From: Notolepis coatsorum
Taxonomy: Eukaryota > Chordata > Actinopteri > Aulopiformes > Paralepididae
Direction of reading: 5' to 3'
DNA: 64,000 nt
Assembly: GCA_963971535.1 (NCBI GenBank)
Contig: OZ020601.1
Location: forward strand, 24,042,471-24,106,470
The notes under the pieces are model-generated. The model did no database searches. It saw only the letters and a program-made list of their open reading frames with translations, and was not told where the DNA came from. Position 1 is the stretch's first letter. Each line of letters begins with the position of its first letter. This document shows, one piece after another, positions 1,421-45,812 of this stretch. The translations under genes and the position numbers were made by a program.

Positions 1421-1748
1421 AAAATTTCAACACTCACTCACCCCGTTTTATATTACATTCCCAAAGAAGTGCCTCCGTCTCTCGTAGTCTCGTTGTGCTG
1501 GATGAAGTCACTGGCGACTCGTGGAGGCGAGGGTTTTGCTTAAATCCAAATAGACTCCAGTCCTTTAATTGTCCAAATGCGACAGTGTGTGCAAGTTTAG
1601 CTCTTGTTTGACAAAACGTGGTCAGGGAGCTCATCGTGGGCTGGAGTCTCTTTACCGACAAACAAAGCTTTTAAAACAATGTGGAGTGATTGTGGAATAT
1701 AATCAAGGGCATTCTGTAGTTTTAGTGTCTCTGTAGTCGGGTACTCAT

Positions 1749-1783
1749 AAAAAGTGACATAATGACTAATGTTCCACCTGTTA
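1749..1783. other. 35-bp microinversion relative to the 42.4-kb paralogue
   Basis: The 35 bases here are the exact reverse complement of 42413-42447. Both copies have CTCAT immediately before and ATGAG immediately after, and homology in the normal orientation resumes on each side. The open frame survives in both, but the inverted copy reads INRWNISHYVTFYEY where the other reads IKSDIMTNVPPVNEY. Confidence 0.95.
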
Positions 1784-2572
1784 ATGAGTTTTGCAGCTGT
1801 TTCAAGTAAGTGTCTCTTCTCAGACTCTTCATCACTGTTTTGTTTTGTGTTGTTATAGTAGGATCTGAGTATGTCTGATGTTTTCTCTCTTATTGTAACA
1901 ATACAATCCAAGCCATCTCCTTCTGCAATAAATATGCTATTTGCATATCGTTGCATCAGCAATGTTTTTAGGTATTGATTACTATATGGGATGGAATCGG
2001 CCTTAGGTCAGAAAAGAAAGAAAGAAACTCATTCAGAAAAAGAAGGCTTCAACGATGGTAGTTTGGGAGCTGGAGAGTGCAAACACCTCTAACTATAACA
2101 ACTATAATGGTCAAAAAGAAGGCTTCAACTATGCTAGCTTGAGAGCTGGAGAGTGCAAACACCTTTTTTAGTAAGCTATTTGTATTTGATGCCTTTCCGG
2201 AAGGTGTATTTTCCTAGATTTTTAGTATGTTCACAAGCATGTCTAGAGGTACCAGAATCAAGTGAAAAATCATAGTTATATATTTTTTTCTATTGAGATA
2301 TATAGCCATTTTAAGCTTGGTCTGCCGCCATTTTGGACGCCATCTTGAAAATTAAGCCTTTCTGGAAGGTGTATTTTCCTAGACTTTTAGTATGCTAGTG
2401 AACATGCACAGAGGTACCTGAATCAGTTGAGAAATCCTTTGCACCATATTCTCAATTTGAGATAGCCATTTTAATATCTCCACCGCCATCTGGGACGCCA
2501 TCTTGGAAATGGCGGCTTTCGGGGGGGTTGATTTTGGTCGACTTTTAGTATGTTATTTAGCACGCCCAATAC

Positions 2573-3551
2573 TAGAGCTGCCGCGGTATTGATTATTTCC
2601 TTACCGCACAAATTTGCAAAATATTTCCTACCGCCGCGGTTTTTACCGCACGCACACAAAAAATTAAAAAAAAAAGTTTGAATGCATTTTTTTTTTAGTA
2701 GTAGTCTACTCTTTATAGCATATAGCCTGCCTCTAGTCTAAATGTCTATCTTTAGAGGATGACTTTGCAGCATGAATATTGTTTGGGATTCGGCAAGCAC
2801 GCATTCGTTATTAAAAGTGAAACACGGATTCGAAGTCTCCCCTCTGGTCGTGCGCCGTTCACTCGGTGTCGCGGGCAGGAGTGGTAGCGGCGCGCCCGCC
2901 GGTTACCCCCCCGACCCTTTCTTCTTCTTATTATTTTAACGTTACTACTTATGATTACAAAGGCATTCGATTTGTGTCATTAACGTTAGTATAGTTACAC
3001 GTTCGTATTTACCGGACCATAGCAAGGCAAGCGTTACTAAATTAATATCTAAGTTCCTTTCTTTGCTCAGAGCGTGCCGAGTTGTACCCATTCTGCGGTC
3101 TGTTAATAAAGTTTTCAATCAGACAAGTGTATAGAACGAAGGGCTTTTATTATAACATTTCGTTGCAGTAAAATCATTATGCCTCGTTCCCTGAGGAGCG
3201 ACGGCAATCCACTCCGGTCTCCGGTGGGAGCTAACGTACTATTAGCCGTGTTGTGACTGAGCTCTGATCAATGGCTCATGGCTGAGATTCAGGAAGTAAA
3301 AGCACTTCGCGTATCTCTTCTGACCAATCTGTGGTCTGCAGTGTTTCATGTGACTTTTCTGGTACCCAATAGGGTCGCTTGGAATCTCGACAGAGAAGTA
3401 GGGTATATCTGCAGAGCCGCAAGCCCAACGAGAGCGTAATAATAATAATAATATAATAAAAAACAGCGGTGATGCCGGTATTCAGCCCAACGCTGCGGTG
3501 GGCATGATGTAACAGCGATACCGCGGTAATACCGATACCGCGGCAGCTCTA
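2573..3551. mobile_element. hAT-type element, 979 bp, with an empty-site paralogue
   Basis: The left end is TAGAGCTGCCGCGGTATT and the right end is ATACCGCGGCAGCTCTA, which are inverted repeats. The target-site duplication CCCAATAC is perfect (2565-2572 and 3552-3559). The paralogous repeat at 44362-44370 has a single CCCAATAC followed directly by TATCGG, which is the unoccupied site. The interior has no transposase frame. It includes a segment at 3080-3120 resembling 5107-5140 (a 'tgtacccattctgc...ataaagttttca' tail), suggesting it carries part of a retroposon tail. Confidence 0.93.
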
Positions 3552-3632
3552 CCCAATACTATCGGAATCCATCGAAAAACCTTTTGTATCAATTTTTTTT
3601 GGGTTAAGTGCTTTTTTTTTTTCATAGATTGA

Positions 3633-3727
3633 CTCCTGGAGAACTGTGGTACCATGATCTAATGCTCCAAGTGTCTCCCGGAGAACTGTGGTACCATGAT
3701 CTAATGCTCCAAGTGTCTCCCAGAGAA
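3633..3727 (+). repeat. 42-bp minisatellite, two copies
   Basis: About two copies of the unit 'ggtaccatgatctaatgctc' plus 'caagtgtctcccrgagaactgt' (42 bp). The same unit forms the larger array at 6542-6795. It starts exactly where homology to the 44.4-kb element ends. Confidence 0.9.
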
Positions 3728-4150
3728 ATACGGCCTGGGGAGTAGGCGTAGCCTGTTCGTGAGCTTGTGATTCGAATGGCTTCTTTTTCTCTATGTAAGA
3801 GTTCATTCCATCCCTACTGGACACTCTGGATGAGGATCGCTGGACCTTGTACTCTTCCAGTACTCTGCACTTAGCCTCTGAGGCAGCTAAAGCAGTCTGG
3901 ACCTGTAACTCCTCTCTCTGCTCTTAGCTTAGCCTCCTGTTCATCGAGTTGTCGTTTTTGTTTTAGAGCGGAAGCTCTTTTGTCTGTACAACTTCCAAGT
4001 TACTGTCGTCGTCATCATCCATTAATTGATTTATCTGATTCATGTGACCAGTTAGCTGACATAGCTTAGCTCTCCTCTTATTGATGGCATGACGGACATT
4101 TTCCTCATAGGCCTTTTGTGTCATTTTAACCTTAATAAGCTCCGACATAC
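3728..4150 (-). pseudogene. Possible BEL/Pao-like gag N-terminal fragment
   Basis: On the minus strand a frame starting at 4148 reads MSELIKVKMTQKAYEENVRH and continues through KRRAKLCQLTGHMNQINQLM and an acidic DDDDDS run. After a stop and frameshifts the coding carries on with LKQKRQLDEQEAKLRAE, EELQVQTALAASEAKCRVLEEY and SSRDGMNSYIEKKKPF. The heptad-like charged segment (LEEQE..., LAASEAK) resembles the coiled-coil start of fish BEL/Pao gag proteins as I remember them. That is a family-level resemblance only, and no protease, RT or LTR is seen nearby. It is broken by at least two frame changes and runs into the 42-bp minisatellite. Confidence 0.4.
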
Positions 4151-5157: not shown

Positions 5158-6239
5158 ATGCACAATGAGATCTTCTTCTTCTTCTTTAGAATTTCCGGCA
5201 GTGTAGACGCATCGTGGCGTATTACTGCCATCTTCTTCTTCTTCTTCTTTAGAATTTCCGGCAGTATAGACGCATCGTGGCGTATTACTGCCCTCCGCAA
5301 TTCTTTTGATGAGCTCTTCTTCTTCTTCTTCTTCTTCTTCTTCTTCTTCTTCTTCTTCTTCTTTCTTCTTTTGAATTTCCCGCAGGCGTATTTCTGCCCT
5401 CCTCAGTTCTTATACTATGCTAGTGGTGTGCCATAGTTAGGCCTCTGGTAAACCAACTTTTGATTGTTTACCCTCTTCTTCTCATCTTCAAAACACACTG
5501 TCTCCTTCTTCTCTGCTCCTCTTGCCTGTCCAATACTAATAAATACAATAACGCTATATCCTCTGGTACAACTCTGAAGCATGCAGAAATGTCAGCACTG
5601 CCTCTGTGATCAGCTGGTGGTTCTCATTATCCATGCCAAAGAAAGATTTAAAAGAGAAGGAAGAGAAAGTCCCAACTCTACCAGACTTTTATAAAAGATT
5701 TCCCTCTCTTTCCTATACCTTTCACATTCTAGGAAGACATGTCCGACAGTTTCAGTTTCTCCACATTCACACCCCCCATCTGGATGTTTTCCCACAATGC
5801 ACAAGGTACTGTTCAACCCACAGTGTCCCAGCCTCAATCTACACATCTTCCCCCTATCACTCCTAGACCCATATCCATCCACCTTGATTTTGACCCGAGG
5901 CTGCAGAGAGAAATAGTGCCTTCCCTTGGTCCCCCTTTCCCACTCAGCCTCAACTCCTTTCTTTATCTTCTCTCTGAGTTCTACTCTTCCCATTGAAATG
6001 CCTATCTCTTCCTCCCTTCCCAGGCTCTGTTTGGCAAGGGAGTCAGCCATCTCATTTCCCGCAATCCCAGCATGCCCCGGAACCCAACAAAACTCCACTG
6101 ACCAGCCTGCCTTCGCAATCCTATATAAAACCAACATTATTTCCTGAATGAGATCAGGGCGAGCTTTAGACCCACCTGCACTCAGAGCCATCAGTGCAGC
6201 AGCCGAGTCAGAACATATAATCACCTGGCTTGGTCCCAC
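5158..6239 (-). mobile_element. 5'-truncated I-clade LINE (RNase H end and 3' UTR)
   Basis: Reading on the minus strand, the element keeps the last about 210 codons (6239 to 5613) and a 3' region made of GAA repeats. The 3' tail is unusual. A segment 'tttagaatttccggcagt.tagacgcatcgtggcgtattactgcc' occurs twice (about 5183-5230 and 5251-5292) and a degenerate third time at 5370-5400, separated by TTC runs (plus-strand reading). The 5' part, including endonuclease and RT, is absent. At 6240 the sequence passes into a 52-bp duplicated noncoding segment. Confidence 0.8.
5613..6239 (-). pseudogene. LINE ORF2 C-terminus: RNase H and CCHC knuckle
   Basis: A frame of about 209 codons, open at its 5' side. 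Early residues include CSDSAAALMAL, matching the third acidic motif of retroelement RNase H. About 30 residues later comes FCWVPGHAGIAGNEMADSLA, which holds the His and final Asp of the same domain. Near residues 155-175 CECGETETVGHVFLEC forms the C-x-C...H...C knuckle that follows RNase H in I-clade LINEs. The domain would degrade the RNA strand of the RNA-DNA hybrid during element copying. The first two catalytic positions and the RT are missing through 5' truncation, so the fragment is inactive. The clade (I/Nimb-like) is inferred from the RNase H plus terminal knuckle arrangement. Confidence 0.8.
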
Positions 6240-6335: not shown

Positions 6336-6541
6336 ATAAGACGGTTCAATGACTTTATCTAAATCCAATCAATATTCCTAATGCCGTTTCAATGTAAGGT
6401 TATAAAAATAAACATAAACATTCATATAATACAATAACCTAAATATACAGCTAAGCCCCATTGTATTCTGAAATGTAGACTTTAACAGTGTAGGCAACTA
6501 AGCCAATAGAAATAAGGTATAACTCATGAGTGCTTTGGCTC

Positions 6542-6795
6542 CTATTGGTACCATGATCTAATGCTCCAAGTGTCTCCCAGAGAACTGTGGTACCATGATC
6601 TAATGCTCCAAGTGTCTCCCGGAGAACTGTGGTACCATGATCTAATGCTCCAAGTGTCTCCCAGAGAACTGTGGTACCATGATCTAATGCTCCAAGTGTC
6701 TCCCAGAGAACTGTGGTACCATGATCTAATGCTCCAAGTGTCTCCCGGAGAACTGTGGTACCAGTGCTCCATGTGTCTCCCAGAGAACTGTGGTG
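6542..6795 (+). repeat. 42-bp minisatellite, about six copies
   Basis: Tandem units of 42 bp alternating CCCAGAG and CCCGGAG variants. The last unit is shortened ('ggtaccagtgctccatgtgt'). Because 42 is divisible by three, long open frames run through on both strands; these are artefacts of the repeat. The same unit is at 3633-3727. Confidence 0.93.
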
Positions 6796-6799
6796 GGTC

Positions 6800-8560
6800 T
6801 CCAGCAAAGGCGCTGTGACTGGCTAGTGTATAATCTAGGCTGTGTGATTGCAGTGGGGCTGAATTGCGGAGAAGATTACTTGAGGCACAGCTGTGTCATA
6901 CTAAACCATCATCTTTAATAATGGTAGCCTACATGGGGTATCAAAACTGCAGCTGTCTTCTATTTAAATAGGCCACACTTGTCAGTAAACACAATACAAG
7001 ATACAAGATACAAGATACTTTAATGCCACACAACAATGGTTGGTGGTAATGTGAACGGTCATTGTTATTTTTTGTCAAACCAAACTCACAGGCCAAATTG
7101 TTATCGTTTTAGGTTTTTTCTTCTCTCGCTCTCTCTCAGAGCCGTTAGCACACTGTGGGGAAGACGGGTGATTCACCAGATCTCTCTGTTCATCCCTGAG
7201 GTCCATTGCACCCCCTTTCCGCCTATCCCAAGCAGTCAGTGCCGAGACGCTAAGCACGAGGTCAGCCAACAACGTATTATTAAAACATTAGATTCACAGT
7301 CAAATCCCAAAAATGGAAACTCACCAAACCCCCCACCCCACCCCAAACTCTCCACTGTTTTCCATACAAAAGAAGCGCATAAATGGATCTTGCCGGAAAA
7401 ACAAGGCCCTGAGGTGGACGGATTAGACCTAATAGCCCCTTAGTTGAAACCTTCCTATCCAGAAATAACAAGACAGAACTTTAAATGGTGCTCTCAGGCA
7501 GCAGTGGCTAGACTATACAAGCCGACCTCCCCTGTGACCCACCACCGAGTCCTGGAGAGGTGCCTTGAATTCCAGGCCTGCTCCTCTTCCAGTCTGCATG
7601 GGGGAGAGTCGCAGGTCAGACCCTTCGCTCTTTACTCCACTGCAGTCTAGGGTTGCCGTGGTGATGTGAAATTTCCCATGACTAACAAACACCAACCAAG
7701 ACAACACTGGTATTACTGGTGACACAGGATATTTTTTTTATCTTTGACATTATACATTGATCCACCAGGTCCGTCTGTGAAGTTTTTAATTAATTTGCAA
7801 TGACTTGTATCCATTTGTTGGACAGGCATGAGCTGATCATGTTATGCTCTAATTTAAAAATAAACCAACAGACAGTAATAACTAACTGTAAACTTTCTAT
7901 CCATTCACGGACGGATCAATGTAGCTGTTATTTAGCACATTGTGTAAACATACTGTTGCCAGCCTGGGCTGGTCCTTTGGGTTGATTGGCAATATTTCAA
8001 GGGCTCTAGCTAGCAAATTGTTGAAGCTAGCGCAAAATGCAATGGCATCATATAAAATTGAAAAAAGATCTTGAGGATCTCAATACCAGCCGCGTTATGC
8101 TAGCTCACCAGCAAAGGGGGTAGATATTGCTCCAAATTTGAGCAACATTTTGATGGAAGGGGGTCAAAAGGGGGTCCATTGAACTCTCACCTCAAGATAC
8201 CTGAATAAAGATGGACTCACTGGAACCACACAAATGTCATCTTTATGCTAGTCCCATGCAGATTTGAGGCCAAATCATGCAGTTTCTATGCCCCCCCCCC
8301 GTGTATCTGTTGGGTAAAGGATAAGGCTTGGGAGGGGGTTGGCAGATGACCTTTTGGCCTCAGATGTGAGTGCGTTTCATAGTGTTATTAATATTGTAGT
8401 TACCGAGGCCCGATAGGCTCAGGACCTCTCCACTAAAAGCTCTATTTTTAGCTCTTTTCTGTTCTGACCCGCGTCAGCATCAAGCCTACGCCACATCCTC
8501 GTTATCCGCAGGTGAGTCACACCGGCCTTACCACCTCTGCCATCTGGACAAAAGGTAAAG
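6800..8560. other. Unassigned sequence
   Basis: No gene, TIR pair or tandem array is recognised. 7000-7020 has three copies of ATACAAG followed by 'atactttaatgcc', resembling the reverse of a LINE tail. 8296-8310 is a C run. Several short frames exist but none has a recognisable domain. Confidence 0.4.
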
Positions 8561-12484: not shown

Positions 12485-13490
12485 ATGGCTAGTTTGAATA
12501 TAATGATCTGGAATACTGGGGGAATAAATAATCAACATAAACGCAAAAGCGTGCTCACACTGATGAAAAACAAACAGGTTGATGTGGCTCTCCTAAGCGA
12601 AACGCACATTTTAGTGGAAGACAAAGCTACGCTAGCGGACAACATATATCATAACATTAGTCACTCTTCCTTTGGAACGAGATCCCGTGGAGTTGCTATA
12701 GTCGTGAAACGGAAGTTGAATATTGAATTGAAGGAAGTATGGTCTGATACAGATGGTCGGATAACCATAGCAAACATTTTATACAGGAATAGGAAAATAG
12801 CGTTGGTAGCGGCATATGCCCCAAATCTGTACGAGGCTAACTTCTACGCTACACTTACCAGAACAATGTTTTTATTTTTATCCACTTTTTCTCCCATTTT
12901 CTATTTTTCTCCCATCCTAATTTTTTCATATCATCCAATTCAACCCTCCCCAGTCTTTGAACGTTGTTTCTTGCCTCCCACAAGCTGGCTGCAATGTGGA
13001 CTAAGTCATACATAGCACGAGTCCCCTCCGATACTCGAGGTAACAGCCGTCGCTTCTTGATTCTACTGCGCAGGCGCACCAACCGACCTGTAGGAGTCGC
13101 TGTCCACAACGCCCAATCCCCACCCTTCAGTTTCCCTCCCCGTAATACGGCCAATGTGTATTACTGTGGACGACCAGCCAAACTGAAAGCAATGTGGAGA
13201 GCAGGGCTCAAACAGGAAGTTCAAGCCTAGTCTCCAGCATTCGTTGCGAGCGCCTTGCCCACTGCGCCACGTAGCCGCACCACTTACCAGAACAATGTTA
13301 AACCTTCCTGAATACTCATTTATAATTGGTGCAGATTTTAATGCCATTTGGGATCCCGGGATGGATAAATCTTATCCCACCTTTTCCAACGACCAGAAAA
13401 ATTCATCTAATGCGTTAAAGGATTGGGCTAAGAATACAGGTGTAAATGACCTATGGCGATCACTCAACCCTACGACCCGAAAGTACTCTT
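12485..13490 (+). pseudogene. L1-like apurinic endonuclease domain, split by a SINE
   Basis: From the ATG at 12485 the frame reads MASLNIMIWNTGGINNQHKR, the N-terminal 'WN..G' start of LINE APE domains. It continues with VDVALLSETHI (catalytic Glu of the SETH motif), RGVAIVVKRKL and IALVAAYAPN. It is interrupted at 12871 by a SINE and resumes at 13300 with LPEYSFIIGADFNAI (Asp/Asn of the GDFN motif). A frame change near 13490 leads to [10 protein letters not shown] and [10 protein letters not shown], the closing SDH motif. The enzyme would nick target DNA to prime reverse transcription. Key acidic and His motifs survive, so decay is mostly by insertion and frameshift. Confidence 0.85.
12871..13280 (-). 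mobile_element. tRNA-derived SINE, copy A
   Basis: Flanked by the 19-bp duplication CACTTACCAGAACAATGTT (12852-12870 and 13281-13299). On the minus strand the head begins 'gtgcggctacgtggcgcagt', containing an A-box-like TGGCGCAGTGGG, followed by a B-box-like GTTTGAGCCC. The tail is the A-rich 'gataaaaataaaaa' end. Related copies are at 15534-16019 and 61917-62837. Confidence 0.9.
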
Positions 13491-15060
13491 GTCGATCTGC
13501 AAGACATAACACTTTCCAGAATAGATTATGTTTTTGCATCCCCTAGACTATTTGATAACTATGACATGGAAATGGTACCCAATGCACTATCAGATCACTG
13601 TTATTTACTCCTAAAAGGATCATTTGGTATACTGTCATCCCGAACCCCAAGATGGCGATTTAACTCGATATTGCTGAAAAACAAGGAATTCATTACACAA
13701 TTCAAAGAAGCTCTTTCTGTATTCCTACTGGAGAATGCGAAATCGGTACCGGACCCCAGAATATTATGGATGTCGGTAAAGGGATTGATCAAGGATTTTA
13801 CCGGGAACTTTTCCTCCAAAATACGCAAGAATCGGTGTTCAAAACTGGCAGAGCTGGAAACGCTTTACTCTACGTTATTTTCCTCTTTACAATACAACTA
13901 CTCTGTTCGACTGGAAACTCAAATGAATGTGTTAAAAAAAGAGATTAATGCCATTTATAAACAACAATCTGAAGTTCAAATACGTAGCACAAGACAACAG
14001 CATTACTTTCATGGTTCTAAACCAAGTCACCTACTAGCTATGCAGTTAAGAGCCAACGCAAAATTTGCAGATATAACTACCATTAAGGCACAGCAAGGAC
14101 TTGTTACAGACCCTAAGAAAATCAACGAGACATTCAAAGAGTTCTACTCCAACTTGTACAAATCAGAAATGGCCTTCGATCAAAACAAAATGGACATATA
14201 TCTTAATCAAATTAACCTTCCTAAACTATCACAGGATGACGCTAAACAGTTAGAAACACCCATCACACTAGATGAACTTAGGGAGGCCATATCTGAAATG
14301 CAAAGTGGTAGGGCTCCTGGAAGAGACGGTATCCCACCAGAAATGTATCTCTCATGTTGGGATGTAATTGGACCCCTATTACTTAATATGATTCTATATT
14401 CAATCAAGGAGGGGAACTTCCATAAGAACGACAATATTGCACTCATAACAGTCCTCCTTAAAAAAGACAAAGACCCCACTGATTGCGGTAGTTATAGACC
14501 CTTAAGCCTCCTCGGAACCGATATCAAGCTGTACTCCAAGGTATTAGCCATCAGACTTCAAAAGCATAGGACGTCTTTAGTTCATCCTGACCAGACTGGC
14601 TTCATAAGAGGCCGCTTGATCACGGATAATATAAGATGGTTACTACATGTGCTAGATGCCAGCAAGGATGACACCACACCTAAGGCGATGCTGTCCCTGG
14701 ATGCGATGAAAGCCTTTGATAGGTTGGAATGGTCTTATCTATGGGCAGTATTAGAAAGGATGGGGTTAGGAAAAGGATTCATTGATATGATTAAAGTATT
14801 ATACAAAGACCCATCGGCCATGATTACAACAGGTATAATCACCTCCGAAATCTTTACGGTATCGCGCTCTTCCAGACAGGGTTGCCCTCTTAGTCCCAGA
14901 CTATTCGCTTTATCATTAGAGCCTTTAGCACAATATATAAGACAATCCCAATCCATAGAACCAATCGCAATTAAGGGCACACAACATCATATTAGTTTAT
15001 ATGCGGACGACGTAATATTGTTCATGCAAAACCCTAACACCTCATCTTCTCAAGTTGATT
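13491..15060 (+). pseudogene. L1-like reverse transcriptase domain
   Basis: An open stretch of over 500 codons. It contains the pre-RT helix region ([18 protein letters not shown]), [14 protein letters not shown] (RT motif 1 area), [50 protein letters not shown] with the first catalytic Asp (about 14691-14730), [20 protein letters not shown] and YADDVILF with the catalytic Asp pair (about 15000-15022). All main RT motifs are intact. The reading frame ends at 15060 by a frameshift, after which the thumb continues from 15055 in another frame. The motif set, with no RNase H, points to the L1/Tx1 group. Confidence 0.9.
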
Positions 15061-17156
15061 GAAGACTTTGGCAATCTATCGGGATTTAGGATAAATTGGC
15101 CAAAGTCGGCTTTCCTTCCACTTAATGCCCCTGCAAAGAATATACTCCTTCCAGAAGAAATACCAAAGGTTAAACACTTCAGATGTTTAGGAATTGAGGT
15201 ATTCCCTACTATAAGCCAAACGGTGAAGTACAATTACACAAAAATCCAAGATAAGATCAAATATGACTTTGACAGGTGGTCCAAACTTAAAAACTCAGTA
15301 CAGGCACGAGTATCAATAGTTAAGATGGATGTTTTACCTAGAATCAACTTCATTAGCTCAATGTTACCGTTATCCCCTCCTGATGGTTACTGGAAAAATT
15401 ACACTCCACCGCATATACATTTATTTGGAATAACAAACAGCCACGAATAAAAAAGATCCACCGCACAGAGAAACAAAGCCGACGGAGGTTTGGCATTTCC
15501 AGACTTTTACCACTATTTTAAAGCGTACTCTTTTTTTTATTCTTTTTTTTTAATCCACTTTTTCTCCCATTTTCTATATTTTCTCCCATCCCAATTTCGT
15601 ATCATCCAATTCAACCCTCCCCTGTCACGAACGCTGTTTCTTGCCTCCCACAAGCCGGCTGCAATGTGGACTAAGTCATACATAGCACAAGTCCCCTCCG
15701 GTACTTGAGGTAACAGCAGTCGCATCTTTTCACCTGCGCAGCTCGATCTCTGTGGCGAGGAGTAACGCGTGGGAGGCTCACGCTGCCCCCGACACTTCCT
15801 GATTCTACTGCGCAGGCGCACCATCCGACCTGTAGGAGTCGCTGTCCACAACGCCCGATCCCCACCCATCAGTTTCCCACCCCCTAATACGGCCAATGTG
15901 TATTAGTATGAACGACCAGCTAAACTGAAAGCAATGTGGAGCGCTGGGCTCGAACAGGCAAGCCCAGCGTCTCCGTCATTCGTGGCGAGCGCCTTGCCCA
16001 CTACGCCACGTAGCCGCCCTTTAAAGCGTACTCTTTAAGACCACTGACAACCTGGTTTGACTCCCAAGCATCTGTATCCTGGAGAAACTTAGAAGAAAAT
16101 ATAGTAGCACCACATAGACTGCAGGACATAGTATACACCATATTATCAATTAAGCAATGCGAATTGAAATTTGGCCCCCTTATTACACATGTGATCCGGA
16201 TATGGCGTGAAACACAAAAAAAATATTCTAACCAACATAAATGGCATAGCCATACTCCCCTATTCAATAACAATGCACTCCTTATTGGAAAACAACCTAT
16301 AAGATACCCCAAATGGGAAAAGCAGGGCATACACACATTGGGAGATGTTTTCAACAAACAGGGTTTTTGTAGCTATCAAGATATACATAAAAAATGTAAC
16401 CTCACCAGTTCCACATATTATTTTTACGCACAGTTATTGGATTGTTTGAAGGCTCATGGAGTCCCATTAAGGATACCAATTGAGCACCACAGATATCACA
16501 AATTCTTCTATGAAAGAGAGACATAGAGAGGATTCGTATCCGATTTGTATCATCACTTACTAACGTCTTCGTATGGAATCCTCCCCCTAGACTCAGTCTG
16601 GAGGAGGGATATACCAGACTTGGAAATAGATTTTGATTGGCAAGAAGTCTGGGCAAACGTTCGAATTGCGTCACGTAACCCGGACCATCAACAAATTAAT
16701 CTTAATTATATTCATAGGACATACCCGACTCCTATAAGATTGAACAGAATGGGACTTAAACAAGACTCCCTATGTTCCTTATGTACAAATGGGGATGAGG
16801 GTACATGTACATTCATGCACATGTATTGGGATTGCCCACCGGTTAAGATATTTTGGAAAGAAGTGTCCCAGCAATTATCAGCATTCTTATCTCTGAACAT
16901 ACCTGTACATCCCTCTGTATTGCTGTTTGCAACCCCTATACAGCTAAAGAGACTAGTTTTATCCGGTCTCACAGCTGCTAAAAAGCTGATAGCATCACGA
17001 TGGATTCAACCGGAAAAAATGTGCCGGAAGGTATGGGTTCTTACCTATCTCGATGGGATTTATCTAGAAATATCTACAGCAAGAATTTTAGGTGTCAGTG
17101 AAACCAACATTGCAATCTGGTTAGAAGTGGTGGAGAGAATAAAAGCTAGCATATGA
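15055..17156 (+). pseudogene. L1-like ORF2 C-terminal part, split by a SINE
   Basis: After the frameshift: FGNLSGFRINWPKSAFLPLN, HFRCLGIEVFP, then a frame change near 15400 into FIWNNKQPRIKK and GLAFPDFYHYFKAYS. A SINE follows (15534-16019). Coding resumes with FDSQASVSWRNLEENIVAPH, runs through a stop at 16524-16526 and ends near 17156. SLCTNGDEGTCTFMHMYWDC is the Cys/His terminal motif typical of this group. Multiple breaks make it inactive. Confidence 0.85.
15534..16019 (-). mobile_element. tRNA-derived SINE, copy B
   Basis: Duplicated target TTTAAAGCGTACTCTTT (15517-15533 and 16020-16036). The minus-strand head 'ggcggctacgtggcgtagtg' with A box TGGCGTAGTGG and B box GTTCGAGCCC is a better-preserved version of copy A. 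It is 486 bp against 410 bp; the extra segment at about 15733-15798 is also present in the 61.9-kb copy, so copy A has a deletion there. Confidence 0.92.
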
Positions 17157-32255: not shown

Positions 32256-33010
32256 ATGGCTGATTTTTCCATTGACGTGATCAACACAACACTAGGATTG
32301 AGTGTCTTCTGATGACATCACTGAAGCACACATTTCAAACTCATTAACTCTCCATAACTGTCACACTAAATAAATGTGTGCAGAACAGTTTAGAGACTTG
32401 GGATGTGTGTGAACTTATGTGGAAAATAAATCGGCGTTGTTTTCCGACAAAGTGCCTATTTAATGCCCACGTTAGTCTTATGCCTGAGTAGAGGAATAAC
32501 TGGCAGCGATATGATGTGAATCTTCAGGAATGTGGCCGTTTATAACAACAAGCGAAAACCATATCATCACACCTGGCGCGGCGGAGATGAACCCAAGCGG
32601 GGAGGGTCGAGAGCGGCGTGACACGTTGGTGTTAAGTTAGCCACTGGCACAGTGACTCATGCAGGTCCCAACTCCCTGCCCCGCCCAGATGCTGACCCCA
32701 TTCTTCATCTCTATCACACACACACAAGCCCTTACACACACACACAAAGAATGTGTTTACATAAGTTTGGGATGCACCGATAACGATTTTTCACTGCCTA
32801 TACTGTTAAACTTATCATCTAAGTATCGTACGAGTACAGATGCCATTCATTAGTCTACTGAACAGTATAGACTTCAGAGTAGACCATCAGTTTTGAGTCA
32901 TTGGCACAAAAAAAACTATTGAAATATAATAATTTTTTCCTTCATTAGAGATCCAACACACTTCCATGTGTGGAAAAAAAGACGAGCGGCTTCCTTTTGA
33001 TTTCCGACAC
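32256..33010. other. Intron sequence without recognised features
   Basis: Contains two short CA runs near 32717 and 32738 and nothing else identified. Confidence 0.4.
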
Positions 33011-34120
33011 GTTTACATTGTCATTTAGCCTTTATCCAAAGCGACTTACACGTTTTGTATGACAAGTCAGCAGGAAGGGTACGACTCTGATGAGCATTGT
33101 TACTCAGCTGATAGTGTTGAGTGCAACAATGTAGGTTAGTATTATTATATAAGTGCATGACGGTAAGGTTAGTTAGTTTATTTTTTATTTTTTTCATTTC
33201 AGGTATTGATTGAAGAAGTGTGTAGTCAATCAATCAATCAATGAGTAGTCGACAGCGAAAGATTGGTCGGGTTTCGGTAGGGCTGGGCGATATGGCCAAA
33301 TCTTTTCACACAATATATCACGATAAAATTTTTCATATCGTTCGATATCGATAATTATATTTGTATTCGTAATTTCGTATACAAACAAATTTTTAAACAA
33401 CAAATGTATTTTTATTTTGCAGCAATTCTTTGTCGTTGCCGCCATATTTAGTGTTACAGCCCCTCACACTCCAGTTCTCGGGCTGCAGCTGGTTTGAAAG
33501 TGAAAGTACCAAAAAAAGTGGCTGTGGCTCCAGAGGAGTTGAATAGTTTGGTAGTTTCTTTTCTATCTTTTGGCGCTTTTTTGGTGGACAAACCATGCAC
33601 CGTGACTCGCGACTGGAGACTAGCTCTGCTAGCACACATAGCCTACTGTGTCTGTTCAATCTGTATTTTAAATTAGAAAGCAAACTAAATAAATGGACAA
33701 GAGAAAAATAAATCTCAATTTGGTCAGTATTGTCATTTGGACAAGCAAAGCCATTACTTTAAGTTGCAGGCAAGAAAGACAAGTCTGTCCACTGTCTCTG
33801 GCCCTGTTGCAGGTCACAATACAAATTTGAAATGTATTATTATTTTTTAAATAATTATCGATATTATTTTTATTATCGATTATTAAAATATATCGCGATA
33901 ATTATAGTTATCGTTTTATAGCCCAGCCCTAGGTCTCGGCTGTCCTAACTGTGGAGGGAAGTTCGTTCCACCATTGTGGGGCAAGGGCCGAGAATAGGCG
34001 GCTTCTCTTTGATGACCCTCCCGGAGCTCGGATAGGGGTGGGTCTGACACGTTTCTCTGTATCGCATTTTAGTATCGAGTGAACTCCTCCGATACACCCC
34101 ATTTCAGCCTCCGATATCAG
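33011..34120 (+). repeat. Dispersed repeat split by a hAT MITE
   Basis: 33011-33277 and 33932-34020 together match 38642-38990: 'tttatccaaagcgacttaca', 'agtgcatgacggtaaggtta', 'gacagcgaaagattgg', then 'cggctgtcctaactg' and 'ccaccattgtggggcaag'. The 38.6-kb copy lacks the insertion. The class of the host repeat is not assigned. Confidence 0.85.
33278..33931. mobile_element. hAT-type element, 654 bp, with empty-site paralogue
   Basis: Ends TAGGGCTGGGCGATATGG and CGTTTTATAGCCCAGCCCTA; flanks GGTTTCGG (33270-33277) and GGTCTCGG (33932-33939). In the paralogous repeat the site is a single GGATTCGG at about 38920. Inside, 33515-33637 ('gctccagaggagttgaatag', 'ggacaaaccatgcaccgtga') matches 53570-53700, showing a shared internal module. 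Confidence 0.9.
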
Positions 34121-38641: not shown

Positions 38642-38995
38642 CATTTACATTCACATTTACATTTAGTCATTTAGCTGACGCTTTTATCCAAAGCGACTTA
38701 TAAGTTCTGTACGACAGGTCATCAGGAAGGATACAACTCTATCAGCTGAGTAACAATATTCATCAAAGTGTTGCGTGTTACAGTATAGGTTAGTTTATTA
38801 GGACAAGTGCATGACAGTAAGGTTAGTTAGGGTTCGATTTTTTTTATTTTTATTTTTTTTATTTTATTTCAGATAATGGTTGAAGAAGTGAGTCTTTAGT
38901 CGACGGCGAAAGATTGGACGGGATTCGGCTGTCCTAACTGGGGTGGGTAGTTCATTCCACCATTGTGGGGCAAGGACTGAGAATAGGCGTGTAGG
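38642..38995 (+). repeat. Dispersed repeat, uninterrupted copy
   Basis: Same family as 33011-34020 but without the hAT insertion; also contains 'catttacattcacatttaca' at its start. Confidence 0.85.
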
Positions 38996-39159
38996 TGGTG
39001 TATATGTGTTTGAGGATGATATCCTTCAAACAGGCAATAGTGATGATATAATTTGGGCAGTGCTGAGCTGGGTTACTTTCCTCCAGTGTATTTGTCCCCC
39101 GGCCCCACCCAATGGCCCCATGCACACACACACACCGAAGTAAAAAAATAAAAATAAAA

Positions 39160-39572
39160 TAAAAAAATGTAAAACGTTTTTTTTTTTATGAGTGGGACAA
39201 ATCTATTGTCCTGCAGGTTCCAGCCCCAGTCTAGAGCATCTATACCATCATCTGTTCCCATCCAGACCATGACCTGGTAGTATGCTCTACGACAGTGGAA
39301 TTTGGTAGCAGATTCAGTTGGTGGTAGACGTTCAGGCGTTACCGTTGATGAAGCTGAGACAACCTTCTTGCTGAAAATGTTATATCTCATTTTTGCAAGC
39401 GAATCTGTGCACTTTCCACCAAAAAAGACAGCCATTGCTTGGCACCCAAGGTCATCGATCACATCTGTTGTCTGGTTTGGTACAGTGAATGCATTGGCAC
39501 AAGCCTGAAGGACAGGATCCCCTTTTACAAGTTTTTGGAATGCTGTCTTTTTGCCAACTCCGAAGATCCGGG
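39160..39572 (-). pseudogene. PIN-nuclease element, C-terminal part
   Basis: The minus-strand frame reads TTSRIFGVGKKTAFQKLVKG and continues about 110 residues (LGCQAMAVFFGGKCTDSLAK, RLPPTESATKFHCRRAYYQV, GWNLQDNRFVPL). It continues the protein whose main frame ends in HAVTGCD just upstream; the break is a net loss or gain of bases right after the GCD codons at about 39571. In FEN1-type nucleases the equivalent 'GCDY...I.GIG...A' places the last acidic residue and the helix-hairpin-helix DNA-binding turn. Here the hairpin (FGVGKKTA) is intact but out of frame. Confidence 0.75.
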
Positions 39573-42110
39573 AAGTTGTCACAGCCAGTCACAGCATGGA
39601 TGAACAGCAACTGAGAACACACATCCTGTCCGAGTACTTCTTTCAAATGGTTTATGGCGTACACTTTAAAACTGCCATCAGCTTTCGACTTGTCTGATCT
39701 GAAATAAAGGCCCTTGCTATCTCTCTGTGCATAGTAAATAAGTAAGACGAGGAGATCAGTATCTTCTCCAATCAGCGTCGTGGTGTGAAGAAGAGATGAT
39801 CCCACTGCGGCCCTTACAATGTCTACATCAGCATCTCCAAGTGAATTGACCACAGTGCAATCCCGTTCTTTCAGTTCATCACTTATCATGTGGATCAGTT
39901 TCTGTTTATTCAGATCTCTTGACAGGAACTCCTCCTTCTTACCTGAGAACTCCGTCTCAGCAGTGAAGTTGACAATGGGATGAATATTGTTTCCTCTTCT
40001 TTGATGTGTGTTGTCTTTAATGGATGGCCCATCCTCATAGCCATCAAACACAATGGTTGTAGCTGAGCCATAATGTTGGATGGTGAAGTCTGCATATGAC
40101 TGTGCAATTTTACCATAGCTTTGTCCGTGCTTCCATTGTATTCGGTGAAGGAGTGAACCACCATCAAGAACATAATGCTCCGTTTCTGGTACAGAATCTA
40201 GGATTGCATCACTTGCATGATCACAGATCGCGTGCGCTAGTTGTGGTTTATCAGCTTTGCGGAAGACGTTTCCGGCTTCAAAGAGGGCAGGAGGGAAAGG
40301 ACTGAGTTCGTAACGCATAACCTCCTCCAATGACAGCTCTCCAGTTTGGGAGACAATAAGGAAACGTTGAAAAAGAAGTGCAGAATCAATGATTCGATCA
40401 GGAGCAACCTTGATAGACAATTTTTGTCCAAGGGTTATGGCTTTATCCTTTCTACTAAATGAAAATGTGAATGCCGGCTGTCCGATCATTTTGTGCATGA
40501 TGTTGCGTCCAACAGAGTCATAATCATGCACGTTCACTCCATCCTCAGCGACAACACCTGTAACAACATTCCTTAAAGAAGAGTCTGGAGAGAAAGGTGA
40601 ACATATAGCAAGTTTTGAAGTGATCTTCTCCAGGTCAGCAGCATCCCTTTTCATCCTTGCCTCTGTTGAATCCTTGTGCTGTTCTGATGTTGTGTATGTC
40701 TGGTTTGAGAACTCCTGCATTGCGGTGTTATACTCTGATGTTATGCCCTTTGACATTGTCCAAAGGGATCTCTGATTGTCGGTCATTCCACTTCCATGTG
40801 TCATCCCTCCTGTAGTCTTCAATGACCTCATCAATGTTGTTTCGATTACAAGATCTGAGCTGAGGCCTGCCCATGATTGGCTGCTGCGACGGATAACATG
40901 AAAACCCTTTTCAAATTGTCTGAAGACATCTGGGTGGTTGATGTGAAGCTGACTCATCTCTTGGACATAAAAGTGTGCCGATTTCAAGTAATTGTAATGC
41001 CCAGCCGCAGCGAATATCGGCATGCATTCAGAAACAGCGCGTAGGTGCAAAAGCCAGGAACCTGTGCGATCTGCTGTTATCAGTGACCTAGCAACTTCTA
41101 ACATGTGTTGGTAATTTAGCCACAACTGACTAGTTTTGGATCTAGCACACAGTTCCATCTTCCTTTTTCCCAGCTCTTCATTTATTGTAATGAGGGTCTC
41201 TGATGTGAACACTGTTTCCAATGGCATTTCACCCTTAACTATTGAGGTATACATTGCTTCAGACTGTTCAACCATTGCTGCAAATTCATGACTATCATCT
41301 ACCATTTCTGATATTATCATGCGGTTAAGACATTTGTCAACCAGAAGATGGCCACGGAATGCTCTCTGAACTGATTTGCCTGTCATCATATGGGCTACTG
41401 AGTTCTCCCCATAGACTACCCCTAGAATGTCCTTAAGTCCTGTACCGTCCATCAGTGTACCAATTGCTCCTAGCAAATTCATAAATGTGTGAAATCCTCC
41501 TAGGAGCAGGACAAAGGACTTGAGGTGACTGCACTGTGGTGAATCTAGGATTATCTCTGCTGCTTTCCAATATAGGGGTTGGTCAAATGTAACTACTGGG
41601 GCAAGGTGGTGTTTGGATGCCAGACCACAAATGAACTCCAGTGTTGACAGAATGCATGTTTTGTCTCCGGAGTACATGTCTATCATTGGTAAGTATCTCA
41701 CTGAAGACTGCCCTGGATGTTCATCTCCCTTATGAATAATGTGCATCATCCCCTGCCAACCAGGTGCAGGCTGTTTGAAATTGAACGATAACTCCCAAAG
41801 CAGATCAACCATCTTGTTACATTCTGCGAGTCTTGGAAGTTCTTTAAATGTGGTGTCTCTGCAAAAGTGTTTGGCAAAGTGATAATCTATTATCACAACT
41901 TTTGACCTCTGCACAAGATTCAGTTCATTAATTCTGAACCTCGGAATCCTTTGGTCTGTCTTCTGTCCTGGTGTCAAGGCAGCTATCATGCCCATCCCAT
42001 GAAATGTCCCTTTCCCATCAATTGTTAGAATATTATGATCTACATTGTCTGCAGCAAATAAGACGGTCGTGTTCAACAATATCCTTACCAAGCATGTTTG
42101 GTGCAGTACA
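39573..42110 (-). pseudogene. PIN-nuclease element, central part (about 850 codons)
   Basis: A long minus-strand frame with strong conservation of structure. It begins near LFAADNVDHNILTIDGKGTF and contains APVVTFDQPLYWKAAEIILD, LKSFVLLLGGFHTFMNLLGA, VQRAFRGHLLVDKCLNRMI, YGKIAQSYADFTIQHYG, TTIVFDGYEDGPS, then DADVDIVRAAVG, GEDTDLLVLLIYYA and FIHAVTGCD. The last three fit, in order and spacing, the XPG-I acidic motif, the D.D motif and the GCD motif of FEN1-like PIN nucleases. That is my inference from motifs. The ADNVDHN and TFDQPLY segments could be acidic centres of a second nuclease or transposase fold, which I cannot confirm. From memory, similar large uncharacterised proteins are multi-copy in fishes and many invertebrates; I know no accepted name. 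Confidence 0.75.
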
Positions 42111-43349
42111 ATTTGCAGCATTCATTTCAAACCTCTGCAGTTCAGAATAGGAAGAGCAGAATCCCATCTTATTCAGCATATCTACAATGAACCGAGACCG
42201 GTTTAAGTGGTGCATTTGCACTGCTAGGCCAATTTGCAAAGGGGCAAGGACAGCTCGTGGTCGTACTGCCTGTATGATTGCGTGGCCAATACTAGCAATT
42301 TTCTGCTCGGTCTCTTTACCGACAAACAAAGCTTTTAACACAATGTGGAGTGATTGTGGAATATAATCAAGGGCATTCTGTAGTTTTAGTGTCTCTGTAG
42401 TCGGGTACTCATTAACAGGTGGAACATTAGTCATTATGTCACTTTTTATGAGTTTTGCAGCTGTTTCAAGTAAGTGTCTCTTCTCAGACTCTTCATCACT
42501 GTTTTGTTTTGTGTTGTTATAGTAGGATCTGAGTATGTCTGATGTTTTCTCTCTTATTGTAACAATACAATCCAAGCCATCTCCTTCTGCAATAAATATG
42601 CTATTTGCATATCGTTGCATCAGCAATGTTTTTAGGTATTGATTACTATATGGGATGGAATCGGCCTCAGACAAATACTCTTGCATTTTACACCCAAGTG
42701 CAGAAACGGTCAGCTGTCCATCATCATTCGTTTCAAAGTAAGCACACATTTTTGAGAAGGCTTGTTCTTGGTCCTCATTCTTTGGCCTTCCAGACTTTCT
42801 CCGCTTTGGATTACAATCAGGCTGAAATTCCATGGGAACATCACGGTCACACCGGAAATGTGTGCTACAAGCATTATGATACACACAGTCTGCAGCATGT
42901 AGATCACTATTATAGTATTCAATTCTACCTTTGACTTTGAATGACCACTCATCATTTCGTTTATCACAGCTTTGCAATATAGACTTTGCAAAGTTGTCTG
43001 TTTTCACGTAACTGTAGTCGGCACGTCCTTCATGAACATTTGTGCCGCAGAAAAGGCAATCAGTTTGGCTATTGAATAGAGCTTCAGACTGCCTAGTACT
43101 AGTCCTTTTATTAGTGGTACTTGATTCACCGCTCTGTTTCCTCTGTAAATGTAAATCAATATCTCGGCTATGTATGTACATTTTGCGGCATTCTGAATGT
43201 ACTTTCATGCCAGCAGTCACATGAACAGTGTCACCTCTTTTAACACTAGCTTTATTGATCCCATCAGCACCTTTCTGACGAATCTCAACAAAATCACTTC
43301 CATCTTCCAATTTACAAATGGGACAGATCTGGGCACTGAATTCACTCAT
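42033..43349 (-). pseudogene. PIN-nuclease element, N-terminal part with Cys/His clusters
   Basis: Starts at ATG 43349 (a GTG codon just upstream is less likely) and reads MSEFSAQICPICKLEDGSDF. Paired residues C-x2-C near position 10 and H-x2-C near 52 suggest one zinc site. C-x2-C near 99 (DCLFCG) plus C-x2-H-x2-C near 156-162 (DCVYHNACSTHFR) suggest a second. A basic segment CNPKRRKSGRPK follows. The frame ends at 42033 after GKDIVEHDR through a frameshift; the protein continues in the 39573-42110 frame. The segment 42310-42666 is duplicated at 1646-1994. The Cys/His sites are probably for DNA or protein binding; this is inferred. Confidence 0.75.
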
Positions 43350-43370
43350 CACTTTAGAAATCAGATAATG

Positions 43371-43906
43371 GTCAAAAAGAAGGATTCAACTATGCTAGCT
43401 TGAGAGCTGGAGAGTGCAAACACCTCTGGCAAAGACTATGATGAAACTGGGGCTTAAATAACACTGCCAGGCCAGACACGCCCAGGCATGCCCAAACACA
43501 GGACTAGGTCAGAAAAGAAAGAAAGAAACTGATTCAGAAAAAGAAGGCTTCAACTATGGTAGTTTGGGAGCTGGAGAGTGCAAACACCTCTAACTATAAC
43601 AACTATAATGGTCAAAAAGAAGGCTTCAACTATGCTAGCTTGAGAGCTGAGAGTGCAAACACCTCTGTCAAAGACTAGAATGAAACTGGGGCTTAAATAA
43701 CATTGCCAGGTCAGACATGCCCAAACACAGGACTTGGTCAGAAACTAAAAAATTTAAATAAACTGATTCAGAAAAAGAAGGCTTCAACGATGGTAGTTTG
43801 GGAGCTGGAGAGTGCAAACACCTCTAACTATAACAACTATAATGGTCAAAAAGAAGGCTTCAACTATGCTAGCTTGAGAGCTGGAGAGTGCAAACACCTT
43901 TTTTAG
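43371..43906. repeat. 240-bp tandem repeat upstream of the PIN element gene
   Basis: Two full units (43371-43610 and about 43611-43847) and a partial third (43848-43906). Each has 'tcaactatgctagcttgaga', 'agtgcaaacacctctg', 'actggggcttaaataacact' and 'gaaggcttcaacnatggtag'. They also contain internal half-unit similarity ('gcttgagagctggagagtgc' against 'gtttgggagctggagagtgc'). The partial copy at 2000-2170 has one unit. Confidence 0.9.
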
Positions 43907-43954
43907 TAAGCTATTTGTATTTGTATAGTCATTTTAAGCTCCTGGGCGCCAGTT

Positions 43955-44335
43955 TGGACGCCATCTTGAAAATGATGCCTTTCCGGAAGGTGTATTTTCC
44001 TAGATTTTTAGTATGTTCACAAGCATGTCTAGAGGTAGCAGAATCAAGTGAAAAATCATAGTTATATATTTTTTTCTATTGAGATATATAGCCATTTTAA
44101 GCTTGGTCTGCCGCCATTTTGGACGCCATCTTGAAAATTAAGCCTTTCTGGAAGGTATATTTTCCTAGATTTTTAGTATGTTAGTGAACATGCCCAGAGG
44201 TACCAGAATCAGTTGAGAAATCCTTATGCACCATATTCTCAATTTGAGATATAGCCATTTTAATATCTCCACCACCATCTGGGACGCCATCTTGGAAATG
44301 GCGGCTTTCGGGGGGGGGGGGGGGGTCGATTTTGG
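43955..44335. repeat. About 175-bp tandem repeat, two to three units
   Basis: 'ccggaaggtgtattttccta', 'gatttttagtatgttcacaa', 'tttggacgccatcttgaaaa' recur at about 43960-44135, 44136-44300 and in part after. Same order is found at 2190-2545. Each unit holds GACGCCATCTTG, which fits a YY1-like core (GCCATCTT). Confidence 0.85.
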
Positions 44336-44602
44336 TCAACTTTTAGTATGTTATTTAGCACGCCCAATACTATCGGAATCCATCGAAAAACCTTTTGTAT
44401 CAATTTTTGTTGGGTTAAGTGCTTTTTTTTCATAGATTGACTCGCCTAAAAGGCATCCAAGCTGCCAGGCAGGAGGAGGACAAGCGGATACCCGCACGGT
44501 CACAATGTCCTGATATCTACAAACACGTTTAATTTTTCATAACCAGGTCAGCAGGGTAAAGAGGGTATAAGACGCTTGATACCTCCCCGCTCTGCCTTGC
44601 TC

Positions 44603-45812
44603 TGGTGAAGGGGCAGGTTACTGGTGGTGGTTGGTGGTAGCTGGGCAGGTTACTGGTGGTGGTTGGTGGTACTGTAGCTGGGCAGGTTACTGGTGGTGGT
44701 TGGTGGTAGCTGGGCTGGGCAGGTTACTGGTGGTGGTAGCTGGGCTGGGCAGGTTACTGGTGGTGGTTGGTGGTAGCTGGGCTGGGCAGGTTACTGGTGG
44801 TGGTAGCTGGGCTGGGCAGGTTACTGGTGGTGGTTGGTGGTAGCTGGGCTGGGCAGGTCACTGGTGGTGGTTGGTGGTAGCTGGGCTGGGCAGGTCACTG
44901 GTGGTGGTTGGTGGTAGCTGGGCTGGGCAGGCTACTGGTGGTGGTAGCTGGGCTGGGCAGGTTACTGGTGGTGGTTGGTGGTAGCTGGGCTGGGCAGGTT
45001 ACTGGTGGTGGTAGCTGGGCTGGGCAGGTTACTGGTGGTGGTAGCTGGGCTGGGCAGGTTACTGGTGGTGGTAGCTGGGCAGGTTACTGGTGGTGGTAGC
45101 TGGGCAGGTTACTGGTGGTAGTTGGTGGTAGCTGGGCTGGGCAGGTTACTGGTGGTGGTAGCTGGGCTGGGCAGGTTACTGGTGGTGGTAGCTGGGCAGG
45201 TTACTGGTGGTGGTTGGTGGTAGCTGGGCTGGGCAGGCTACTGGTGGTGCTAGCTGGGCTGGGCAGGTTACTGGTGGTGGTAGCTGGGCAGGTTACTGGT
45301 GGTAGCTGGGCTGGGCAGGTTACTGGTGGTAGCTGGGCAGGTTACTGGTGGTAGCTGGGCTGGGCAGGTTACTGGTGGTGGTAGCCGGGCAGGTTACTGG
45401 TGGTGGTAGCTGGGCTGGGCAGGTTACTGGTGGTGGTAGCTGGGCTGGGCAGGCTACTGGTGGTGGTAGCTGGGCTGGGCAGGTTACTGGTGGTGGTTGG
45501 TGGTAGCTGGGCTGGGCAGGTTACTGGTGGTGGTAGCTGGGCTGGGCAGGTTACTGGTGGTGGTTGGTGGTAGCTGGGCTGGGCAGGCTACTGGTGGTGG
45601 TAGCTGGGCTGGGCAGGTTACTGGTGGTGGTTGGTGGTAGCTGGGCTGGGCAGGTTACTGGTGGTAGCTGGGCTGGGCAGGTTACTGGTGGTGGTTGGTG
45701 GTAGCTGGGCTGGGCAGGTTACTGGTGGTAGCTGGGCTGGGCAGGTTACTGGTGGTGGTTGGTGGTAGCTGGGCTGGGCAGGTTACTGGTGGTAGCTGGG
45801 CTGGGCAGGGCC
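44603..45812 (+). repeat. G-rich 1.2-kb minisatellite
   Basis: Units built from 'gctgggctgggcaggttact' plus 'ggtggtggttggtggta', with optional deletion of GCTGGG or of GGTTGGTGGTA. About 40 units. The plus strand is strongly G-rich with repeated GG and GGG blocks. Long open frames through it are artefacts. Confidence 0.95.

Follow-up and report, generated by a model that had tools for sequence, protein, structure and literature searches.

Academ is a superfamily of Repbase whose elements are described as carrying a DDD/E transposase (PMC9587614). PMC10045372 reports two lineages within it: AcademX, which carries a nuclease and generates 3-4 bp target duplications, and AcademH, which carries a helicase and generates 9-10 bp duplications. 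Curated Academ elements of bivalves, where the superfamily has been amplified, are given a mean length of 5,565 bp (PMC10294476), and Academ is also recorded in zebrafish, medaka and stickleback (PMC4746887). The present analysis concerns 64,000 nucleotides of the fish Notolepis coatsorum (contig OZ020601.1, positions 24,042,471 to 24,106,470, hereafter the window), in which an earlier note, made from the sequence alone, had pointed out an element encoding a Cys/His-rich protein with a FEN1-like C-terminus. This element is very probably a dead, 3′-truncated copy of an autonomous DNA transposon from the nuclease-bearing lineage of Academ (AcademX). The feature is real but probably belongs to an already described, probably named and widespread kind of transposon rather than to a new class, and its interest lies in the nuclease fusion.

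A search over 5.8 billion proteins found 435 relatives at E <= 0.001, the best with E = 0, far above chance. The counts below concern the 120 relatives listed, from which three sets were drawn: 45 picked for length and spread (A1), 32 together with the window open reading frame (ORF) (A2) and 28 (A3). Since 76 of the 120 have at least 1,380 residues, the intact protein is a single ORF of ~1,460 residues; many relatives of about this length sit on contigs of ~5-6 kb. Comparison of three intact relatives with the window by tblastn revealed that the minus strand of 39181-43349 is the remnant of one long coding region. One of them, P0002 (1,458 residues), aligns in three blocks: (i) residues 6-426 with 43337-42078 (74% identity), (ii) residues 429-1261 with 42076-39578 (80%) and (iii) residues 1248-1394 with 39606-39181 (69%). 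The blocks are distributed over three ORFs (42033-43352, 39452-42121 and 39073-39582), so the protein of this copy (copy 1) has two frame breaks. It also lacks the last ~64 residues, which in relatives form a Cys-rich, CXC-like tail. Its parts are as follows.

39181..44443, minus strand: copy 1 of the transposon, in which the transposase 5′ side (right) is complete and the 3′ side (left) truncated, delimited by the tblastn blocks and by the right end shared with a second copy
42078..43349, minus strand: N-terminal block, comprising a pair of conserved Cys/His zinc sites plus a winged-helix-like part (ORF residues ~190-268)
40832..42058, minus strand: putative DDE transposase core, from the invariance of D100, D255 and E502 in A1 (numbering of the relative P0001) and the strand and helix order of the P0001 model
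39181..40177, minus strand: FEN1/EXO1/XPG-like nuclease domain, with a frame break near 39578-39606

Copy 1 is 5.26 kb long and lacks its 3′ end. An intact element would be ~5-6 kb long and would encode one ~1,460-residue protein with, in order, a zinc-binding and perhaps winged-helix N-terminus, a DDE core, a FEN1/XPG-like nuclease and the CXC tail. The extent first proposed, 39160..44440, was chiefly right, the right boundary being 44443, where the homology between the two copies ends. The two zinc sites proposed at the same time are borne out by nine residues (C10, C13, H52, C55 and C99, C102, C129, H159, C162) that are invariant in all 33 rows of A2. A repeat at 38652-38989, which self-BLAST relates to 33008-33199 (77% identity) and 33936-34000 (91% identity), lies next to the left end at which copy 1 is truncated.

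The predicted structure of P0001, an 83% identical relative, contains a FEN1-type fold according to fold comparison, in agreement with the PIN/FEN1 C-terminus initially suspected. The motifs quoted in the earlier note were located on the minus strand of copy 1, those of the nuclease being DADVDIV (from ~39835), GEDTDLL (within 39769-39740) and HAVTGCD (39598-39578). Seven putative active-site acids (D728, D768, D838, D840, D862, D864 and D923) are present in 45 of 45 A1 rows; they were paired with those of FEN1 by motif order. After the last Asp, a helix-hairpin-like motif retains K933 in 45 and G932 in 44 of the 45 rows. In the rows of the fold comparison, FEN1, EXO1, XPG (Rad2) and GEN1 nucleases show 12-18% identity. 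These are free repair enzymes, whereas the nuclease found here is fused to a transposase-like core.

The middle region, in which the earlier note had seen acidic segments, does contain them, but they are not merely acidic: judging from the sequence and the predicted model, the region resembles a DDE transposase in its catalytic core. The putative first D lies in ADNVDHN (within 42058-42032), the second in TFDQPLY (from ~41590) and the E in DLVIE (within 40867-40832), and the three residues (D100, D255 and E502) are invariant in the 45 rows of A1. In the P0001 model, the strands and helices of this region follow the DDE order, and a long helical insertion would precede the last acidic residue. 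Simple motif patterns were found in the following numbers of the 120 relatives (in brackets, of the 76 long proteins): first D 105 (75), second D 110 (76), E 117 (76), DGG 110 (76), FDGY 107 (75), G[DE]AD 89 (64), DTD 96 (65), GCD 97 (71), CXC-like 91 (69), LGxFH 105 (69) and GHxNYxK 67 (37), misses including fragments as well as sequence variants.

The hosts named among the listed matches are the fishes Coilia grayii and Xyrichtys novacula, Seison nebaliae and Porites corals. A second search found 582 relatives, of which 120 were listed, and these include proteins of the sponge Dysidea avara, the sea spider Nymphon striatum, Lytechinus pictus, Holothuria leucospilota, Mytilus edulis, M. galloprovincialis, Argopecten irradians and Mercenaria mercenaria; most listed rows carry no host name. 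Taken together with the repeat content, these neighbours suggest that the window is of teleost origin. A search of viral contigs and of prokaryote genomes found no relatives.

An element of ~5.5 kb that occurs in fishes, bivalves and corals and combines a DDE-like core with an XPG-type nuclease fits AcademX, in which one element likewise bears transposase and nuclease. The size expected of the intact element is close to the Academ mean of ~5.6 kb, and the hosts are animals, Academ being recorded in teleosts and bivalves. AcademH carries a helicase, but no helicase family was listed for the three window ORFs (E <= 1), for four relatives (E <= 0.5) or for 28 relatives including those four (E <= 0.01). 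While the earlier note knew of no accepted name, one very probably exists.

Several observations weigh against this assignment. The family name, which we hold to be highly likely, draws on architecture, size, hosts and one further detail. This detail is that the X of AcademX reportedly stands for XPG nuclease in the AcademH paper of Kojima from 2020; a literature search pairing Academ with XPG nuclease or flap endonuclease found no support for it among the papers listed. Pfam recognizes the core only through DUF6589 (PF20231), which matches its later part weakly in some relatives (5 of the 28 in A3 at E <= 0.01) and stays under the curated cut-off (26.4 bits versus 27 in P0101). The fold-library rows shown for the P0001 model cover no DDE part, the nuclease having filled the lists. 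The C/DxxH motif common to five other superfamilies is not literally there, an invariant GxxH being found instead. Finally, both copies lack the far end needed to see terminal inverted repeats (TIRs) and target duplications. The indirect basis of the name, the faint DUF6589 match and the fold rows devoid of DDE would also suit a transposon that fuses a DDE transposase to a FEN1-like nuclease but comes from another superfamily, one that is either related to a different DDE group or still unnamed. However, published AcademX already combines a DDE transposase with a nuclease (PMC10045372) and Academ agrees in hosts and in expected size with the element described here, which makes such an origin improbable.

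Evidence for mobility comes from the second copy (copy 2), detected by self-BLAST; the repeats were also located by a pattern scan that allowed up to 8 mismatches in 32. The corresponding features are as follows.

1645..3635, minus strand: copy 2, internally deleted and 3′-truncated, with a nested insertion; its coding remnant corresponds to P0002 residues 230-349 (self-BLAST for the copy, tblastn for the remnant)
43365..43923: noncoding direct repeats on the upstream side, whose unit contains AAGAAGGCTTCAACTATG...; copy 1 has five and copy 2 has two (self-BLAST and pattern scan)
43924..44299: subterminal direct repeats that contain GGACGCCATCTTG; copy 1 has three and copy 2 has two (self-BLAST and pattern scan)
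44363..44443: constant end of the element on the transposase 5′ side, closing with ...CATAGATTGACTC, 95% identical to 3552-3635, from two copies only
2573..3551: non-autonomous hAT-like element of 979 bp nested in copy 2, with TIR TAGAGCTGCCGCGGTAT and 8-bp duplication CCCAATAC (pattern scan; empty site in copy 1 at 44363)

Copy 2 has the same orientation as copy 1 and is ~95% identical to it in the two longest matching blocks. As the earlier note had claimed, it keeps the upstream repeats, together with 358 bp of coding sequence and the right end of copy 1; compared to copy 1, ~840 bp are deleted, 42667 being joined to 43505. The term "multi-copy" holds for the two copies seen in the window. 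Their homology stops at 44443 and 3635, beyond which the flanks are unrelated. This homology up to one common right end indicates that coding and noncoding parts moved together, as in a transposon. Random breakpoints of a segmental duplication had also been envisaged, and the boundaries bear this out on one side only: the two copies share a constant end on the right, whereas the other is cut at different points (39181 in copy 1 and 1645 in copy 2).

A mobile element with a structure-specific nuclease is the best reading, and an amplified cellular gene family, that is, a host nuclease with duplicated pseudogenes, is very improbable. The annotation of relatives from several animals, among the matches seen, as "uncharacterized" or "hypothetical" proteins would suit such a family. 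However, the DDE-like core has an invariant D-D-E, both copies bring noncoding repeats up to one common terminus between unrelated flanks, both are broken, and among the listed rows clusters at 90% identity hold as many as 247 sequences (P0186), to which several samples may contribute. Even less probable is an older segmental duplication in which host DNA rearrangement copied repeats and coding part together, as could be suggested by the unlike, truncated left ends and by the minisatellites adjoining both copies, because the right-hand homology ends at the same base with unrelated sequence outside and relatives of the same protein span animal phyla.

In the likely mode of action, the N-terminal parts of the protein and its CXC tail would bind the subterminal repeats and the target, while the DDE core, with a putative transposase activity, would nick the element ends and join the 3′ ends to staggered target cuts. 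The flap nuclease, acting in cis, would most plausibly cut the 5′ (non-transferred) strand or trim 5′ flaps at ends or gaps. The nuclease or helicase has been suggested to be related to the duplication length of each Academ lineage (PMC10045372). It is conceivable, but on the whole unlikely, that the transposase's own flap endonuclease replaces the host FEN1/EXO1 in cutting the non-transferred strand or processing 5′ flaps, thereby setting the length of the target duplication. If so, these elements would constitute a natural fusion of transposase and FEN1 that follows a transposition pathway of its own, and they might merit a separate rank from helicase-bearing Academ. The predicted fold and the invariant residues give the nuclease a structural basis, in an element class that occurs in numerous marine animals and whose proteins bear the annotations "uncharacterized", "hypothetical" or "CXC domain" among the matches seen. 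They also raise directly the question of why a transposase should include a flap nuclease of the replication type. For genome annotation, the false impression of an unnamed gene family is removed.

Other elements were observed in and around the two copies. The ends and 8-bp duplication of the insertion nested in copy 2 are typical of hAT. A 47-bp stretch of copy 2 (1743-1789) is an exact inversion relative to 42407-42453 of copy 1 (self-BLAST). A 42-bp minisatellite (TGTCTCCCGGAGAACTGTGGTACCATGATC...) forms two arrays 3 kb apart (3630-3770 and 6529-6800), the former starting exactly where copy 2 has its constant end, and a long array of 30/37-bp units (GGGCAGGTTACTGGTGGTGG...) occupies 44597-45800, near the constant end of copy 1; many further minisatellites occur across the window. 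A non-long terminal repeat (non-LTR) retrotransposon remnant spans 12485-17156, with Exo_endo_phos (12485-13015), RVT_1 (13446-15062) and, weakly and below threshold, zf-RVT (16545-17156). Finally, the ORF 5610-6239 (minus strand) matches Pfam RNase_H (E 7.1e-08) and is probably part of another retroelement.
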